A program made the position numbers and the translations under genes. DNA of 64,000 nt from NCBI RefSeq assembly GCF_000025725.1, contig NC_013943.1:868001-932000 (forward strand). Direction: 5' to 3'. The notes under the pieces are model-generated. The model was given only the letters and a program-made list of their open reading frames with translations, was not told the origin of the DNA and did not search any database. Origin of the DNA: Denitrovibrio acetiphilus DSM 12809 (GTDB taxonomy: Bacteria > Chrysiogenota > Deferribacteres > Deferribacterales > Geovibrionaceae). Of this stretch, positions 6,793-62,214 are shown in pieces; position 1 is the stretch's first letter, and every line of letters begins with the position of its first letter.

Positions 6793-8565
6793 ATGAAAGT
6801 GTTAGACATGAGGAAGATGAGTATCTCCATTCAGGTGCTTGTCCCGACACTGATTGTTCTTATCTTTGTATTTGCAGTTATTTTCTTTGTGACACAGAGA
6901 GCAAACACAAAAATCGCAGAAACAATTTCTAATAAAAGATCCAGTGAAATGCTGAGAGTGCTTGAATATGTCGTAAATGCAGACATTGCTGAAGAGGGGG
7001 CAGTGGGAGATGTTTATGATGATATTCAGAAGTTTGTTTCCAGTATGCCTCTGGGCGAAAATGGCTATTTTTTTATTATGGATGTAAAGGGGAATCTTCT
7101 CTATCACATTAACAGTAAAATGAAAGGTGAGAATATCGCCGGTTATGATTTTGTAAAAACCATGCTCAATACCACTGAAGGGGACATTATCTATGACTTT
7201 AAAGGTAAAACAAAATGTGTCTCTTTTAAACATCTTAATTCTAAAGGGTGGGTGATTGCAGCAGGTTATGAAGTAAATGAACTTTACGCTCCTTTCAGGC
7301 AGGTTGAAAAGATAATACTCGGACTTTGTCTCTCCGGGCTGTTTGTGTTGAGCGTTATGCTTATATTCATCATTAAAATGCTCCAGCGTAATATAAAACA
7401 CACTCTGGATTCATTTATAGAAGTTGCCAAAGGCAACCTGACACGCCAGGGGAAAGGTAAAAAACTTGTTTCATGCTGGGAGGCAGTTGACTGTCACGAC
7501 AAAAATTGCTCTGCATATGGTGTCGAAGGGCTGCCTTGTCACCTTACTGTTGGAAGTGAAGCACCGAATTTCAACCTCCCTGTGGAATGCACACGCCTTA
7601 CCGATGGCACACACAACAATTGCAAAGAGTGTGATTACTATACAGGGCATCTGCGGAATAGCAACGAACTGCTGGAGATGGACAGTTATAAAGAGTCTAT
7701 GATATTTAAGCTTACCAAGTCCCTTATGGATATTAAAGAGACTGCTGATAAACTGAATACAGGCTCAGGGATACTTTCAAGCTCAACAGAAGAGCTGAGT
7801 GCAAATGTTTTACAGCAGAATCAGGAAGTCAGCCAGATTAACACTGCAATGGAGCAGATTAATGCAGGAGTGGAGGATGTTGCGCAGAAGGTAACTGAAA
7901 CAGAAACACTGGCTTCTGACAGCCGGTCATATGCCGAAGAGTCAGAAAAAAATACCCTTGCTGCAAAAAACATGATCGGTGATGTCGTCTCGTCCAGCTC
8001 AGTTCTTATAGAAAACATAAATATATTAAAAGAAAATTCTGAGTCCATGAACAGCATTCTGGGGCTGATAAACGATATTGCAGATCAGACAAATCTGCTC
8101 TCTCTGAACGCTGCTATTGAGGCTGCCAGGGCAGGTGATGCAGGCAGAGGATTTGCTGTTGTGGCAGATGAAGTTAGAAAACTTGCCGAAAGGACTGTTG
8201 ATTCTGTTAAAGAAATCTCAGGCATTATTAACCAGAATAATCAGACAGTTGATAAAGCTGTTAAAGATGTTCAGGGGAATATCGCCCAGATATCAGGGGT
8301 GGCGGATTTTATGGAAAAACTGAACGAATCATCAATTCTGACAAAAAATAATGCAGAAACTACCGCTGATAATATTTCTCAGGTTGCAGCAGCTATACAA
8401 CAGCAGGCAGCAGCAATAGCACAGATGGAGAATGCTATTAATCAGGTTTCAGTCGGGGTTGCGGAGATAGCTTCTGCTACGGAAGTTTTATCTGAGATGA
8501 GCTCGGATCTTAAAGATGACGGTGAAATACTCGAAGGTGAAGTTGATAAGTATAATTTTGATTAG
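6793..8565 (+). CDS. Methyl-accepting chemotaxis protein with Cache sensor and cysteine-rich insert
   Basis: Membrane chemoreceptor of 590 residues. The order is TM1 (~12-33), a periplasmic single-Cache-like domain (~45-165, with [18 protein letters not shown] and [17 protein letters not shown]), TM2 (~174-196), a short HAMP-like stretch, a cysteine-rich segment, and the signalling domain. The signalling tip is [21 protein letters not shown]...[18 protein letters not shown]. The cysteine-rich segment starts [13 protein letters not shown] and carries seven Cys at about 228, 234, 239, 249, 266, 277 and 280. This resembles the CW-type cytoplasmic cysteine motif seen in some receptors and suggests metal or redox sensing. 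The ATG at 6793 has GGAG 8 bases upstream; an in-frame start at 6751 lacks one. No CheR-binding C-terminal pentapeptide is evident. Confidence 0.95.
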
Positions 8566-8602: not shown

Positions 8603-8691
8603 CGTCATTGCGAGGAGCATTGTGACGAAGCAATCTGAATATGCATAGTGTCGCTGCCGCTGTAAGATTGCTTTACTCCGTTCGCAATGAC
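8603..8691. repeat. Dispersed palindromic repeat, copy 1
   Basis: About 89 bases bounded by CGTCATTGCGAGGAGCATTG and the imperfect complement CGTTCGCAATGAC. The inner arms are GAAGCAATCT and AGATTGCTT. It is the same family as the tandem array at 17306-17690, in the opposite orientation, and as a degenerate copy at 38521. It lies between the chemoreceptor stop and its terminator. The CATTGCGAGG...GAAGCAATC type is a widespread noncoding palindrome in bacteria. Confidence 0.8.
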
Positions 8692-16337: not shown

Positions 16338-17276
16338 ATGATAAAAGCGTCCGATAATAAGTTTATGCAGATAGATAAAGCAGTTTCAATATTCCTTAAA
16401 TTTATGCAGCAGGAGAAGGGAGCGTCCGATCATACTATCAAGAATTACTCCCGTGATCTTGCAGACCTGTGTATGTATCTGGAGGATTCGGCTATTGACG
16501 ACATTCAGGATGCTGATTTTTTCACTTTGCGGGGGTTTGTGGCGATGTTGTTTGACAAGGGGCTGGCAAAGTCAACTATAGAGCGGAAGATAGCCTGCCT
16601 CAAATCTTTTTTTGCATTTATGCAGAAGAAGAACCACACGGATGATAATCCTGCACGGATGCTGAAGTTTCCTAAAAAGGAGCAGAAAGCATTTAAAGTT
16701 TTTAATATTGACAGTATTATAGCTCTTTTGGATGCTCCGGATAAAGATAAGCCGGCTGGTATGCGTGATGCGCTTATTCAGGAACTTATGTATGGAACAG
16801 GGGTTCGTGTCAGCGAGCTGGTGGGGCTTAATCTTTCAGATATAGACTTCGGTGGTATGCGTATCCTTGTTCGAGGTAAAGGGAAGAAAGAGCGTATTGT
16901 TCCTATAGCAGACATGCATATTGAGATGATCAATGATTATCTTGATGTTAAAATGGATATTTGTAATGGCTATCTACCTGATAATGAAGCAATATTTATT
17001 AATAAATTTGGTTCCAGACTTACAGATCGTTCCGTACGCAGGATCGTTGAGAAATATCTGAAGATAGCCGGACTGCCTATGGATTTTTCACCTCACTCAT
17101 TCAGGCATTCATACGCTACCCATCTCCTTGAAGGGGGGGCAGACCTGCGGACTATTCAGAGTCTTTTAGGGCACGAGTCATTAACCACCACCCAGAAATA
17201 CACACACTTGAATCTGACGGAACTGCTCCGTGTTTATGATGCCACCCATCCTTTTGCATCCGGTAAGCATGATTAG
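16338..17276 (+). CDS. xerC: Tyrosine recombinase XerC/XerD
   Basis: Site-specific recombinase that resolves chromosome dimers at dif. The 312 residues have a SAM-like N-terminal core-binding domain (~12-100) and a catalytic domain with the full set R157 (GTGVRVSEL), K181 (VRGKGKKER), H253 and R256 (SPHSFRH), H279 (LLGHESL), and the nucleophile Y288 (KYTHL). Location after topA-trmFO favours XerC, but sequence alone does not separate XerC from XerD. The start is uncertain: 16338 and the ATG at 16365 both lack a strong ribosome site. The gene is followed at once by a tandem palindromic repeat array. Confidence 0.94.
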   Translation: MIKASDNKFMQIDKAVSIFLKFMQQEKGASDHTIKNYSRDLADLCMYLEDSAIDDIQDADFFTLRGFVAMLFDKGLAKSTIERKIACLKSFFAFMQKKNHTDDNPARMLKFPKKEQKAFKVFNIDSIIALLDAPDKDKPAGMRDALIQELMYGTGVRVSELVGLNLSDIDFGGMRILVRGKGKKERIVPIADMHIEMINDYLDVKMDICNGYLPDNEAIFINKFGSRLTDRSVRRIVEKYLKIAGLPMDFSPHSFRHSYATHLLEGGADLRTIQSLLGHESLTTTQKYTHLNLTELLRVYDATHPFASGKHD

Positions 17277-17305
17277 TAAGCCTGTAACTTTAGAATGACG
17301 GAAAA

Positions 17306-17690
17306 GTGTCATTGCGAACGTATGTGAAGCAATCTTATGCCGTTCAGGATGTAGTATATTCAGATTGCTTCGTCACTTTGTTTCTCGCAATGACGGGAAG
17401 GGTGTCATTGCGAACGTATGTGAAGCAATCTTATGCCGTTCAGAATGTAGTATATTTAGATTGCTTCGTCACTTTGTTCCTCGCAATGACGGAAAAGTGT
17501 CATTGCGAACGTATGTGAAGCAGTCTTATGCCGTTCAGGATGTAGTATATTCAGATTGCTTCGTCACTTTGTTTCTCGCAATGACGGGAAGGGTGTCATT
17601 GCGAACGTATGTGAAGCAATCTTATGCCGTTCAGGGCGTCGTGTATATTCAGATTGCTTCGTCACCTTGTTCCTCGCAATGACGGGAAGG
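17306..17690. repeat. Tandem array of four ~96-bp palindromic repeats
   Basis: Four near-identical units start at 17306, 17402, 17497 and 17593 (spacing 96, 95 and 96 bases), and the last runs to about 17690. Each unit reads GTCATTGCGAACGTATGTGA, then AAGCAATCTTATGCCG, a short loop, then AGATTGCTTCGTCAC and TCTCGCAATGACGG, so the two ends pair as an imperfect palindrome. Partial seeds flank the array (AATGACGG at 17294 and GTGTCGTCGC at 17691). Open frames across it are repeat artefacts. It lies between the convergent recombinase and carbonic anhydrase genes and has no accompanying transposase. Confidence 0.9.
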
Positions 17691-17717
17691 GTGTCGTCGC
17701 AGCTGGGGGCGACTGGT

Positions 17718-18341
17718 TCAGCTAATGAGCTCGAATTCTCCTGTTTCTTTATTAAAGTTGTAAACTTCGCCTTTGGAAATAACATAATACCAACCATATA
17801 TATGCAGTTCACCTTTTTCATACTTTCTGCTTATGTATGGGTAACTGAGTAGATTTGCCATCTGTTTGACTATATTTATCTGCTCTGTTATCCATGCTTT
17901 GTGTTCTGGGTCTGCATCTGGGTGGCGCAGGTGAACTTCGCTTTTTACTCCCTCTATCTGCTCCAGCCAATGTGCAACATTCGGCAGCTGTTCGAGCTGT
18001 GTCTTATCAAAATAGATTGCGTTGCATCCGCCGCAGTTGCTGTGTCCACAGACCACTATATTTTCAACATCCAGAGCATTGACTGCATATTCAATAGCGG
18101 ATGTTGTAGCTGCATATTCTTTTGCTACACGGTAGTGTGGGACAATATTTGCTATGTTGCGGACGACAAAAAGCTCACCGGGCAGGGTCCTTGTGATCAG
18201 CTCCGGTACAACGCGTGAGTCTGAACAGCCGATGAATAGTGTGTGTGGCTTTTGTTCGCTGTGGAGTGATTCGTATAATTCTTTTCTCTTTTCGAAGCTT
18301 ATCTCTCGAAACTTGATTGCACCCTTAAAAAGCTTATCCAT
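17718..18341 (-). CDS. can: Beta-class carbonic anhydrase
   Basis: Zinc enzyme that interconverts CO2 and bicarbonate, 207 residues, cytosolic (no signal peptide). The metal and catalytic residues of the beta class are all visible: C39, D41 and R43 in GCSDSRV, and H100 and C103 in VVCGHSNCGGC. A good AGGAG site precedes the ATG. It lies downstream of and co-oriented with PEP carboxykinase, another CO2-handling enzyme, but a terminator between them suggests separate transcripts. Confidence 0.97.
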   Translation of the reverse strand: MDKLFKGAIKFREISFEKRKELYESLHSEQKPHTLFIGCSDSRVVPELITRTLPGELFVVRNIANIVPHYRVAKEYAATTSAIEYAVNALDVENIVVCGHSNCGGCNAIYFDKTQLEQLPNVAHWLEQIEGVKSEVHLRHPDADPEHKAWITEQINIVKQMANLLSYPYISRKYEKGELHIYGWYYVISKGEVYNFNKETGEFELIS

Positions 18342-38444: not shown

Positions 38445-38520
38445 ATTATGGTGTTGAAAGACAGAACACCACACATTTATGCGTTTATGAATGAGCTAAT
38501 CACAGCTTTAGAGCTTATAA

Positions 38521-38608
38521 GTCATTGCGGGGAATGTAATGACGAAGCAATCTCAGGATTAACTAACGAGTTCAGAGACTGCCGCAGCTCTGCGGGCTTC
38601 GCAGTGAC
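38521..38608. repeat. Dispersed palindromic repeat, degenerate copy
   Basis: The left arm GTCATTGCGG...GACGAAGCAATCTC matches the family at 8603 and 17306. The right arm (GAGACTGCCGC...CTTCGCAGTGAC) is diverged. It lies between the convergent sulfotransferase-like and ablB genes. Confidence 0.65.
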
Positions 38609-38701
38609 ATATTTTGCGTATGCTCTGGATGTGACAACGAAGTTGTAGCTTCGTGTGTTAAGCACGTTTGAAGCAATAGAAGCGGGGTTACCCGTGAGAA
38701 T

Positions 38702-39514
38702 CTATATCACTTTGTACCAGATATTCATACTCTCTATATCGCCGTTAATATTGGTGTTGTTGTAGAGTGTTCCGCTATAGCTGTAACCGCATCTGGCAAA
38801 AGTTTTATTCATGCCGTATGAGACACTCCTTGCAATAGTGAAGAATGATCTTATGCCTCGCTGTTCGAGGTCTTTTTCCATCTGCTGTAGGAGTGAAACC
38901 GCAAAGCCTTTCCCTCTGTGTTCGGGAAGTGTGGCAAAATCCGTCATCTCCGCCAGACCTGATTTGTTGTCAACTTCGGCACTGGAGGTGGCTATCATCT
39001 CGCCATTTTCAAATACGCCGTAATAGGTGACGTGACTGTCCATCATCTCCATTATAAAATCCCTGTAGTATATCGGGAACGGATAAGATTTGAAAACTGT
39101 TTTATATATTGCTATCTGGGCGTCGATGTCGTTTTCGTTCAATGATCTTATCTCGAAGTTTCCCGAAGTTTCTTTACTGTCGCAGGATAATGCAGTGGAT
39201 ATAACATCTTTGATTTCGTCCATATTCTGAACATCTCTGCGTTTTTCGGAGAGGTATTTTGCAACGAAGAAATACTGCTCGTACATACTGTTTTCAAGCT
39301 GCCCTTCAGTCACATAATTCTTCTTTTCAAAGAGAGCAACTCTTGTCTTAGGCACTTTCGCTATAATTTTGGAATAGCCCTGTTTCCTCGCTAGAAGTTC
39401 GACTATATCGACAGTGGCATTCCCGTCTTCTTCTGAAAAGCTTAATATATAGGCTCTGTCGTTATGTTTCCCGTGCTGGATCTGAGAATTTCCAACGGTG
39501 ATTATTTCATCCAT
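38702..39514 (-). CDS. ablB: Beta-lysine N6-acetyltransferase AblB
   Basis: GNAT acetyltransferase of 270 residues that converts beta-lysine to N-epsilon-acetyl-beta-lysine, a compatible solute. The C-terminal half holds the acetyl-CoA fold, with the [22 protein letters not shown] loop (motif A, ~205-225). The N-terminal half is the AblB-specific region. It overlaps the end of ablA by eight bases, and this two-gene arrangement is diagnostic. The pair indicates osmotic adaptation. Confidence 0.93.
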
Positions 39515-59937: not shown

Positions 59938-62214
59938 TCAGACTTTAAACCGGTTCACCATCTCCTTCAGCTCTTCTGTCTGCTTGTCCTGTTCGGCAAG
60001 TGTCATAGTTACATCGTTTATAGCGTTGGAACTTTGCTCAACACTGGAAGCTATCCCCTGAACCTCAGTCGTGACTGAGTTTAAAGTTGTTATCTGTTCC
60101 GATATTGCATTGTTGATAGATGAATTTGCAGTTTCTATCTCTTGAACAGAGCATACGATATTGTCAAATACGCTGCTTGTTTTACCCATGATAGAGACAC
60201 CTTCGTTTACAGATGTTTCTGCTGATGCCATATTGCGGGATGCAGAGGCTGTCTCTCTTTTAAATTCGCTTATTATTCCGTCTATTTCACTTGTTGCGCT
60301 TTGGGTTCTCTCTGCTAGCTTACGTACTTCGTCAGCGACGACAGCGAAGCCCCTGCCTGCTTCTCCTGCTCTTGCTGCCTCTATTGCAGCATTGAGTGCC
60401 AGAAGATTTGTCTGGTCTGCAATGTCGTTTATAACGTTAACTATCTCGGCTATCTTAGCAGATGAGCCTGCAAGGTTTGATACGGTTTCCCCTAGCAGTT
60501 TTGTCTGTTCCATAATATCTTGTATTTTGCTGACAGATTCCTCAATTTTAACTTTTCCTTCTGCGGTTATATCGCCGGATTCTCTCGCTTTATCCAGAGC
60601 GTTCATAGAGCTGTCCGAAATCTCTGTTGTTGTCGAGTTCAGCTCTTCCATGGCGCTTGCAACGCTTGATACGTTTTCGGCCTGCTCGTTGAATGTGAGG
60701 TTCAGCTCTTCTGTAGTGGAGGCGAGAGCTGATGTCCCGATCGATACAGAGTCGGCAGATTTCTGGACGTCACGTACAATGTGCTGAACATTTTCAATAA
60801 ATTGATTAAAGTATTTGCTGAGCTCAGCTATTTCGTCGTGACCTTTTACAGGGATCCTGAGAGTGAGGTCACCTTCACCTGTGGCGATATTTTTCGTAAT
60901 TTTAGTAAGTTGGTTGATTTTGCTGATTACCATTCTTCTAAGTAAGATAATGGTCAATGCCAAAGCTATAATGGTTATGATACATGAGATCGCAATAATA
61001 AGATTGCGAAGCTGCCAGGCTTCTGTGAGCGCTTCTGCATAGTCTTTTTTAACGATAATCCCCCATGTTTGTCCATAGACATCCAGTGGTTTGTAAGCGG
61101 TGAATGATTTTTCGCCCATACCGCTTATAATTATCTCTGCGCCTTCTTGTCCTGCGACAGAGTTGCCGGCAGCGCGACTGTTGATTTTTACTATACCAAC
61201 ACTTGTACCGGCTGTTTCAACTTCGGGGTTATCTTTTTTTAATTTATCAAGGAATCTATGATTATTTCTCATGTACATATCTGAGCCGAGAAGAACTGTG
61301 AGACCAGTTTTGCCCATGCCTACGGATTCGTACTTTCCTCCGAAATCAGATATTGCGTTGATTATTTCCACAGGGAGCTGGACTATCATATAGCCTGTGA
61401 TCTTGCCATTTGCCGACACAGGCGTTCCCAGAAATGCTGCGGGGGAGTTGTAACTTGGTTCGTAGGGGCGAAAATCAGCAAAAGCGAGTTCACCTTTTTT
61501 CAGAGGCTTAAGCTTTTTGAATACTTCGCCAAGTCCTGATTCTGCATAAATGTCATTTGTAAGGTTAGTTGCAAAATCTTTCTCTTTATATACGGTATAG
61601 ATTACATTCCCTTCAGTATCTGTCAGAAAAATATCATAGAAATTAAACTCATTCATAACTTCGTATAAAGAATGGTGATAGGTTCTGTGGGCTGTGTTGT
61701 AAGGGCTTATAACCTCTGTCTGTGTGAGCTTTTCTTTTGCTCCCACAGGGTTTGGGTTGGAATAGATGTAAGTGTGCTGAAGCAGTCTTCCGTTAATTGC
61801 AGAGGGCAGATATTTTTTTATCTCTTTTTTCTGGCTGCTTCTTGGTATGTTATAGTTGACGTTGGGGAGGTATTCGTTATTATAATTTTTCGTAAGATCA
61901 TTTGTGACCAGAGTGTCACTGATCTGATAGTATTGGTCATAATTGCTGAATGCATCGGCAAATTCTTCGACAGCAGCTACAGTGCTTTCTTGCGCTGCGA
62001 TTGATTTTAGTGTATCACCAATCATGTCTAGATAGGTTTCTATTGCGAATGACTGTGTCTCTCTGATGGCTTTTAGCTGATCAAAGGTTGCTCTTGTAAG
62101 GCTTTTTTTACTTTGAACGACAGCAGTAAGAGTGACCAGACCAGACAAAACAATAAAACTAAAGAGTATAACGCTGATAAGTTTAAGGTTCAATGAAGCA
62201 GTTTTTTTGTTCAT
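59938..62214 (-). CDS. Methyl-accepting chemotaxis protein with large Cache sensor
   Basis: 758-residue chemoreceptor: TM1 (~9-30), a long periplasmic domain (~32-390) that looks like a dCache sensor ([35 protein letters not shown]), TM2 (~400-424), HAMP (~426-478), and the signalling domain with tip [21 protein letters not shown]...[18 protein letters not shown]. The ligand is unknown, but dCache domains often bind amino acids or organic acids. A strong promoter lies upstream at 62329-62357. Confidence 0.96.

Follow-up and report, generated by a model that had tools for sequence, protein, structure and literature searches.

The intergenic region between a XerC/XerD-type tyrosine recombinase gene (xerC) and a convergent carbonic anhydrase-like gene (can) of Denitrovibrio acetiphilus holds an array of four tandem units of 87, 87, 87 and 89 bp. 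It occupies positions 17308-17683 of the window, the whole 64,000-nucleotide stretch analysed here (positions 868001-932000 of the single contig of the finished 3,222,077-bp genome; Table 1). The recombinase scores below the curated XerC and XerD cut-offs, with XerC as its best match. TRF placed the array at 17294-17695 with a period of 96 bp, 4.2 copies and 92% matches, and reported a second, higher-order period of 191 bp. The 8-9-bp linkers between units alternate (GGGAAGGGT, GGAAAAGT, GGGAAGGGT), and GGGAAGGGT follows again after unit 4. Units 1 and 3 are 98.9% identical and the remaining pairs 91-97%; an earlier sequence-only reading, which had called the units almost identical, was slightly strong for a range of 91-99%.

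The central claim of that reading, four tandem palindromic repeats of about 96 bp between xerC and the carbonic anhydrase gene, is borne out by the TRF period and by folding. Every unit forms a long imperfect hairpin, with a folding z of -4.2 as DNA on either strand and 0 shuffles as good. The anticipated folding of the transcript is also seen, the whole array as RNA reaching z values of -8.0 on the plus strand and -8.3 on the minus strand. No T-run of an intrinsic terminator lies 3' of the array hairpins, and no Rfam family scored above its gathering score in the window.

Table 1. Coordinates of the array, its flanking genes and related loci within the window
Feature	Position	Strand	Remarks
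XerC/XerD-type tyrosine recombinase gene	16338..17276	+	stop 31 bp before unit 1
Partial unit end and linker (AATGACGGAAAAGT), left array edge	17294..17307	.	TRF start, linkers
Unit 1, REP doublet	17308..17394	+	arm A 17308-17335 (+), centre, arm B 17362-17394 (-)
Unit 2	17404..17490	+	arm A 17404-17431 (+), arm B 17458-17490 (-)
Unit 3	17499..17585	+	arm A 17499-17526 (+), arm B 17553-17585 (-); 98.9% identity with unit 1
Unit 4, most divergent	17595..17683	+	arm A 17595-17622 (+), arm B 17651-17683 (-)
Carbonic anhydrase-like gene (can), convergent	17718..18341	-	ends 35 bp after unit 4
Free type I REP doublet, opposite orientation	8604..8691	-	arm B 8604-8636 (+), arm A 8665-8691 (-)
IS200-type MITE, type II doublet in middle	38446..38705	+	ends approximate; ends align to IS200 ends
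Type II doublet in MITE	38521..38608	+	arm B 38521-38553 (+), partner arm C about 38577-38608 (-)

The array is unlikely to be an assembly artefact, because the genome was finished from 454 and Sanger data, the latter at 7.8x coverage, with repeats given finishing reads (PMC3035293), and because the units carry private differences. A CRISPR was considered and rejected, since the whole 96-bp unit repeats, centres included; the genome report counts 0 CRISPRs in D. acetiphilus (PMC3035293). Directly after unit 4, positions 17684-17707 read GGGAAGGGT and then GTCGTCGCAGCTGGGGGCGAC, a hairpin that starts with GTC and is unlike the REP family; it may be a remnant, or else the terminator native to can. 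Elsewhere in the window, a 128-nt inverted repeat (8068-8195 and 60305-60432, 77% complementary and 52 kb apart) perhaps reflects paralogous genes.

Arms, tips and genomic copies of the doublet

Within a unit, two unlike hairpins face each other head-head as an inverted pair, the short arm A being separated by a centre from the longer arm B. The two arms follow one plan, GTC-ATTGC-GA-(apical stem-loop)-GAA-GCAAT-CT. Arm A reads GTCATTGCGA-ACGTATGT-GAAGCAATCT, and arm B in its fullest form reads GTCATTGCGA-G-GA-AC-AAA-GT-GA-C-GAAGCAATCT. The GA/GAA internal loop is conserved in the arm stem and occurs twice in arm B. GTC-ATTGC is found in all arms and is preceded by C in 210 and by T in 182 of 413 (features partly built into the search pattern). 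The arm tail is CT or CTT in D. acetiphilus, and CCAG-like tails are common in other phyla.

The apical stems covary across phyla. Compensatory changes among 101 catalogued genome arms comprise AC/GT, GC/GC, ACCC/GGGT, ACTC/GAGT and GGG/CCC, and in arms from public contigs, chosen by their outer 10 and 9 bases only, the inner stems pair above shuffles at nearly all lengths. Double-sided changes in the stems number 17 where 4.2 are expected and 19 where 6.3 are, each value being reached in 0 of 500 shuffles, although the sequences are related and these shuffle figures are not probabilities. Shifting the partner by one column lowers the paired cells from 95% to 14-18%. Some G-T pairs are present in the arm stems. 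The energies of single-arm hairpins are unremarkable by nearest-neighbour rules because GA pairs and special DNA loops receive no credit.

At the arm tips, paired triloops are GNA in 100 of 121 cases, with N free (A 45, C 25, T 16, G 14), and 110 of the 121 are closed by C-G. The classified tetraloops (104 from an order-level list, many of them from two genomes and thus not independent, and 18 from other phyla) include 77 GNYA, 9 GNRA and 10 GNAB. RNA would prefer GNRA tetraloops. The tips fit the loop codes of d(GCGNAGC) minihairpins and of d(cGNNAg)/d(cGNABg) tetraloops, and in the array itself the tip AC-GTAT-GT falls into the cGNABg class. DNA minihairpins with GNA or GNNA loops and G-C closing are extraordinarily stable (PMC4686876), and the DNA tetraloops d(cGNNAg) and d(cGNABg) are stable as well (Nakano 2002, as cited in PMC8373063). 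This match suggests that the arm tips are under selection as single-stranded DNA; protein recognition of the tip G and A would give the same loop pattern. The minihairpin codes were defined in vitro, and it is from the fit that we infer a role for them in repeats.

The supposition that the unit belongs to a genome-wide family held when copies were counted: blastn of the repeat gives 51 genome matches at E<=1e-3, and there are 83 occurrences of the 10-mer GTCATTGCGA, compared with 2 of its reversed control. Free "type I" doublets account for about 20 loci, several of them tandemly amplified. They include the array and the doublet at 8604-8691, a true free doublet that had been recognised as an opposite-orientation relative at 8603-8691. 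Other tandem loci lie at genome positions 818835, 937188, 1087252, 1622247, 72350 and 2543798. Because doublets are most alike within their own array (identity 0.88-0.99, against a mean of 0.71 between loci), each tandem array grew in place. Homology between type I loci ends at the edge of the doublet or array.

With genes called by a simple longest-ORF rule, the 42 catalogued loci divide into 21 flanked by convergent genes, 20 flanked by co-directional genes, 1 within an ORF and 0 flanked by divergent genes, against a window baseline of 7 convergent, 20 co-directional and 10 divergent; the copies do nearly always follow the 3' ends of genes, as had been proposed. This bias fits either a 3'-end function or the purging of insertions from promoters and genes. 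A function of the array in termination or transcript stability is plausible. It is also possible, at odds that run against it, that the array serves first of all as an RNA element, which would be selected at the RNA level as a barrier to RNases or as the 3' end of transcripts. The lack of loci between divergent genes, the very strong folding of both strands as RNA and the G-T pairs in the stems all point that way, but purifying selection against promoter and gene insertions would yield an equal 3' bias, and the tips are of DNA type, in the excess of GNYA over GNRA tetraloops as in the predominance of GNA triloops.

Relatives, other phyla and the search for a transposase

The arm pattern was found in 19 of 60 relatives and the reversed pattern in none. 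One congener (G001) has no arm pattern and another (G002) has 4, and three relatives are repeat-rich, with 37 (G006), 58 (G008) and 74 (G018) exact arm matches; G018 also has BIME-like arrays, and G008 has A arms in tandem. In public genomes the pattern is present in at least 115 stretches, of which single matches are weak evidence, some dozens being expected by chance on our own estimate, and doublets are strong evidence. Among the matches listed, close pairs in two collections are head-head (+-) in 79 of 105 cases, and 38 of these 79 are A+B by the naming rule used. The doublet-bearing records among the matches listed, some of which are metagenome bins, come from Bradyrhizobium, Microvirga, Legionellales, Mucilaginibacter, Hymenobacter, Nostoc, Microcoleus, Chloroflexus, Chlorobiota, Armatimonadetes and Patescibacteria.

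Plasmid and phage collections gave no match to the repeat, and a literature search by sequence, in which figures are not searchable, returned no relevant paper. A viral contig (L273, 8244-10612) carries three 130-132-bp doublets with minimal arms (inner GGAAC), a possible further variant.

Y1 transposases were searched with PF01797 in the D. acetiphilus genome and the 60 relatives. Y1/RAYT transposases are not necessary for the repeat, since G006, G008 and G018 have no Y1_Tnp at all, and they are not adjacent to it: an arm lies within about 1.5 kb in 0 of 30 Y1 loci, those of G001 and G002 included. The only Y1 gene of D. acetiphilus is an IS200 tnpA with no repeat beside it. No RAYT gene flanked by the repeat was found in this genome or at the 30 Y1 loci, and the REP-type (Y1/RAYT) transposase that the sequence-only reading had advised looking for was accordingly rejected as a partner. 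The doublets might instead be ordinary REPINs whose RAYT is encoded elsewhere or has been lost. Inverted unlike short hairpins, a 3' location and BIME-like tandem arrays are REPIN/BIME architecture, and G001 and G002 each encode a longer Y1 protein of 219-221 aa. Such an origin is nevertheless unlikely, given a genome without RAYT, the repeat-rich relatives without Y1, the Y1 loci without a nearby repeat and a tag that is GTC instead of GTAG.

An autonomous element flanked by arms was also tried, by clustering the ORFs between arms 250-4000 bp apart at 300 loci, and rejected; only viral-looking and unrelated ORF clusters appeared, with no recurrent transposase. In another repeat-rich relative (G025), a small contig (C2) gave seventeen identical 144-aa IS200 transposase matches on one strand. 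Two of these loci were fetched, neither with the repeat nearby.

IS200-type MITEs and the xerC-can junction

About 40-45 family copies lie inside elements of ~260 bp whose ends match the genome's single IS200. Judged by these ends, the elements are IS200-type MITEs, and their cargo is a REP doublet. The relative at 38521-38608 that had been described as degenerate is indeed related, but it is not merely degenerate: it forms the core of such a MITE, whose ends align to IS200 with 86% identity over 51 nt on the left and 77% over 57 nt on the right (up to 96% and 90% in other copies). No transposase lies inside this MITE. With about 40 copies in IS200-type MITEs, this one included, the earlier phrase "without a transposase in sight" does not hold as a general statement. 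The MITE left end has 41 genome matches, and every further copy fetched has a REP arm. The tnpA of the genome's only full IS200 scores as the NCBIfam IS200 equivalog (110 bits against a cut-off of 55). Three MITE copies (at about 1781.7, 2765.2 and 2149.5 kb) have one internal deletion in common, lying between a pair of GAAGCAAT repeats, which suggests either a smaller self-multiplied MITE subfamily or recurrent slippage.

IS200/IS605 elements insert in an oriented fashion. MITE orientation tracks the replichore (14 to 2 versus 3 to 27; p about 3e-7 in a Fisher test). The terminus used here lies near 1.4 Mb, as judged from the GC skew of 40 sampled 4-kb stretches together with the repeat loci. 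Among type I doublets no such orientation is seen (p about 0.6), in a set of 20 loci from which a moderate bias could escape.

These data bear on a further explanation, in which all copies stem from IS200-type MITEs and the free doublets are remnants. About 40 MITEs hold a related doublet, and every inspected MITE copy has one. Against this origin, type I doublets are without MITE ends, and what their loci share stops at the edge of the doublet or array; arm B is paired with A in them and with a different arm, C, in the MITEs; they lack the replichore orientation; and A+B doublets of the same kind occur in many phyla. The array itself has no MITE ends at 17294-17695 and no homology past its edges. 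We therefore consider a remnant origin quite improbable.

At the junction itself, xerC and can are convergent without the repeat in both congeners and in one family member (G005), which agrees with the earlier proposal of recent local tandem amplification. The intergenic sequence of the congeners has diverged too far to define an insertion point or target duplication. The Xer neighbour is probably a matter of chance, as had been allowed, because several other tandem loci exist and only this array is seen beside xerC (the neighbours of the others are unannotated). A role of the array as a recombination site of the adjacent Xer recombinase has adjacency as its one argument and is very improbable, as the family's other loci and arrays sit elsewhere in the genome and the congeners' xerC orthologue holds the same place with the repeat absent.

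Interpretation and comparison with known systems

With a probability of about 0.7, we read the array as a locally amplified REP doublet, BIME/REPIN-like and CGTC-REP-like, with a 3'-end role and a two-route spread as follows. In the lineage of D. acetiphilus, one doublet would have reached the xerC-can junction, and local multiplication would have followed through slippage at replication or through unequal exchange between hairpins; the 191-bp period is visible. If the array has any function at this junction, it may be that of a 3'-end structure serving the converging transcripts of xerC and can from both sides, in termination or as an RNase barrier, and apart from that role it would be nearly neutral.

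On the first route, about 40 copies ride in IS200-type MITEs, which share the IS200 ends and would be moved by the IS200 TnpA. On the second, free doublets, the array included, may spread via a mechanism that acts on single-stranded DNA hairpins, as the tips suggest, and for which Y1/RAYT is not needed; that free doublets disperse as mobile units we infer from their distribution. It is a tentative and rather doubtful extension that the widespread A/B doublets as a whole spread as single-stranded DNA, their tips selected for the minihairpin code, by machinery other than Y1/RAYT. A recombinase of a new kind might provide such machinery, or else the ordinary enzymes of replication and repair.

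The agent that moves CGTC-type REPs has been a standing question since their description in 2013. The A/B family provides a sharp handle on it and opens the mobiliser question to tests in laboratory strains, through its presence in many phyla, its conserved A/B asymmetry, its Y1-free host genomes and its DNA-type rather than RNA-type tips. D. acetiphilus adds another route in concrete form, in which an IS200-type MITE takes a REP doublet along.

The closest likeness is to the CGTC-tagged REPs, families CGTC-1 to -4 (Di Nocera, De Gregorio and Rocco 2013, PMC3733652). Shared features are an unpaired 5' tag of (C)GTC, an AT stem opening, mostly head-head dimers, an intergenic 3' location and the lack of a dedicated transposase. 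The short C-rich tail is partly alike, being CCAG-like in other phyla but CT or CTT in D. acetiphilus. According to the survey, CGTC REPs have an uninterrupted 8-9-bp stem, a loop of 4-5 and a 3-base tail that is mostly CCA (PMC3733652). In contrast, the arms described here have a 5-bp stem, a GA/GAA internal loop, a variable apical stem and mostly 3-nt loops, and apical stem and loop lengths range widely among them. Tandem clusters are rare in CGTC REPs and common in D. acetiphilus, and the phyla found here exceed the five reported for CGTC (PMC3733652). The survey itself notes that elements with bulges may have been missed (PMC3733652). On this description we class the family as a variant of the CGTC-REP kind, probably distinct from CGTC-1 to -4, though some overlap with CGTC-3/-4 is conceivable.

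With BIMEs and REPINs the family shares a unit that is an inverted pair of unlike REPs, an extragenic 3' location and tandem arrays, in which inverted REPs alternate as they do in BIMEs. It differs from these GTAG REPs with their RAYT in its GTC tag and in that no RAYT association was found. Finally, the non-autonomous derivatives of IS200/IS605 elements (MITEs, PATEs) are matched by the about 40 copies with both IS200 ends and a replichore orientation. This likeness covers the copy at 38521 and not the array; here the REP doublet is the cargo of the MITE.
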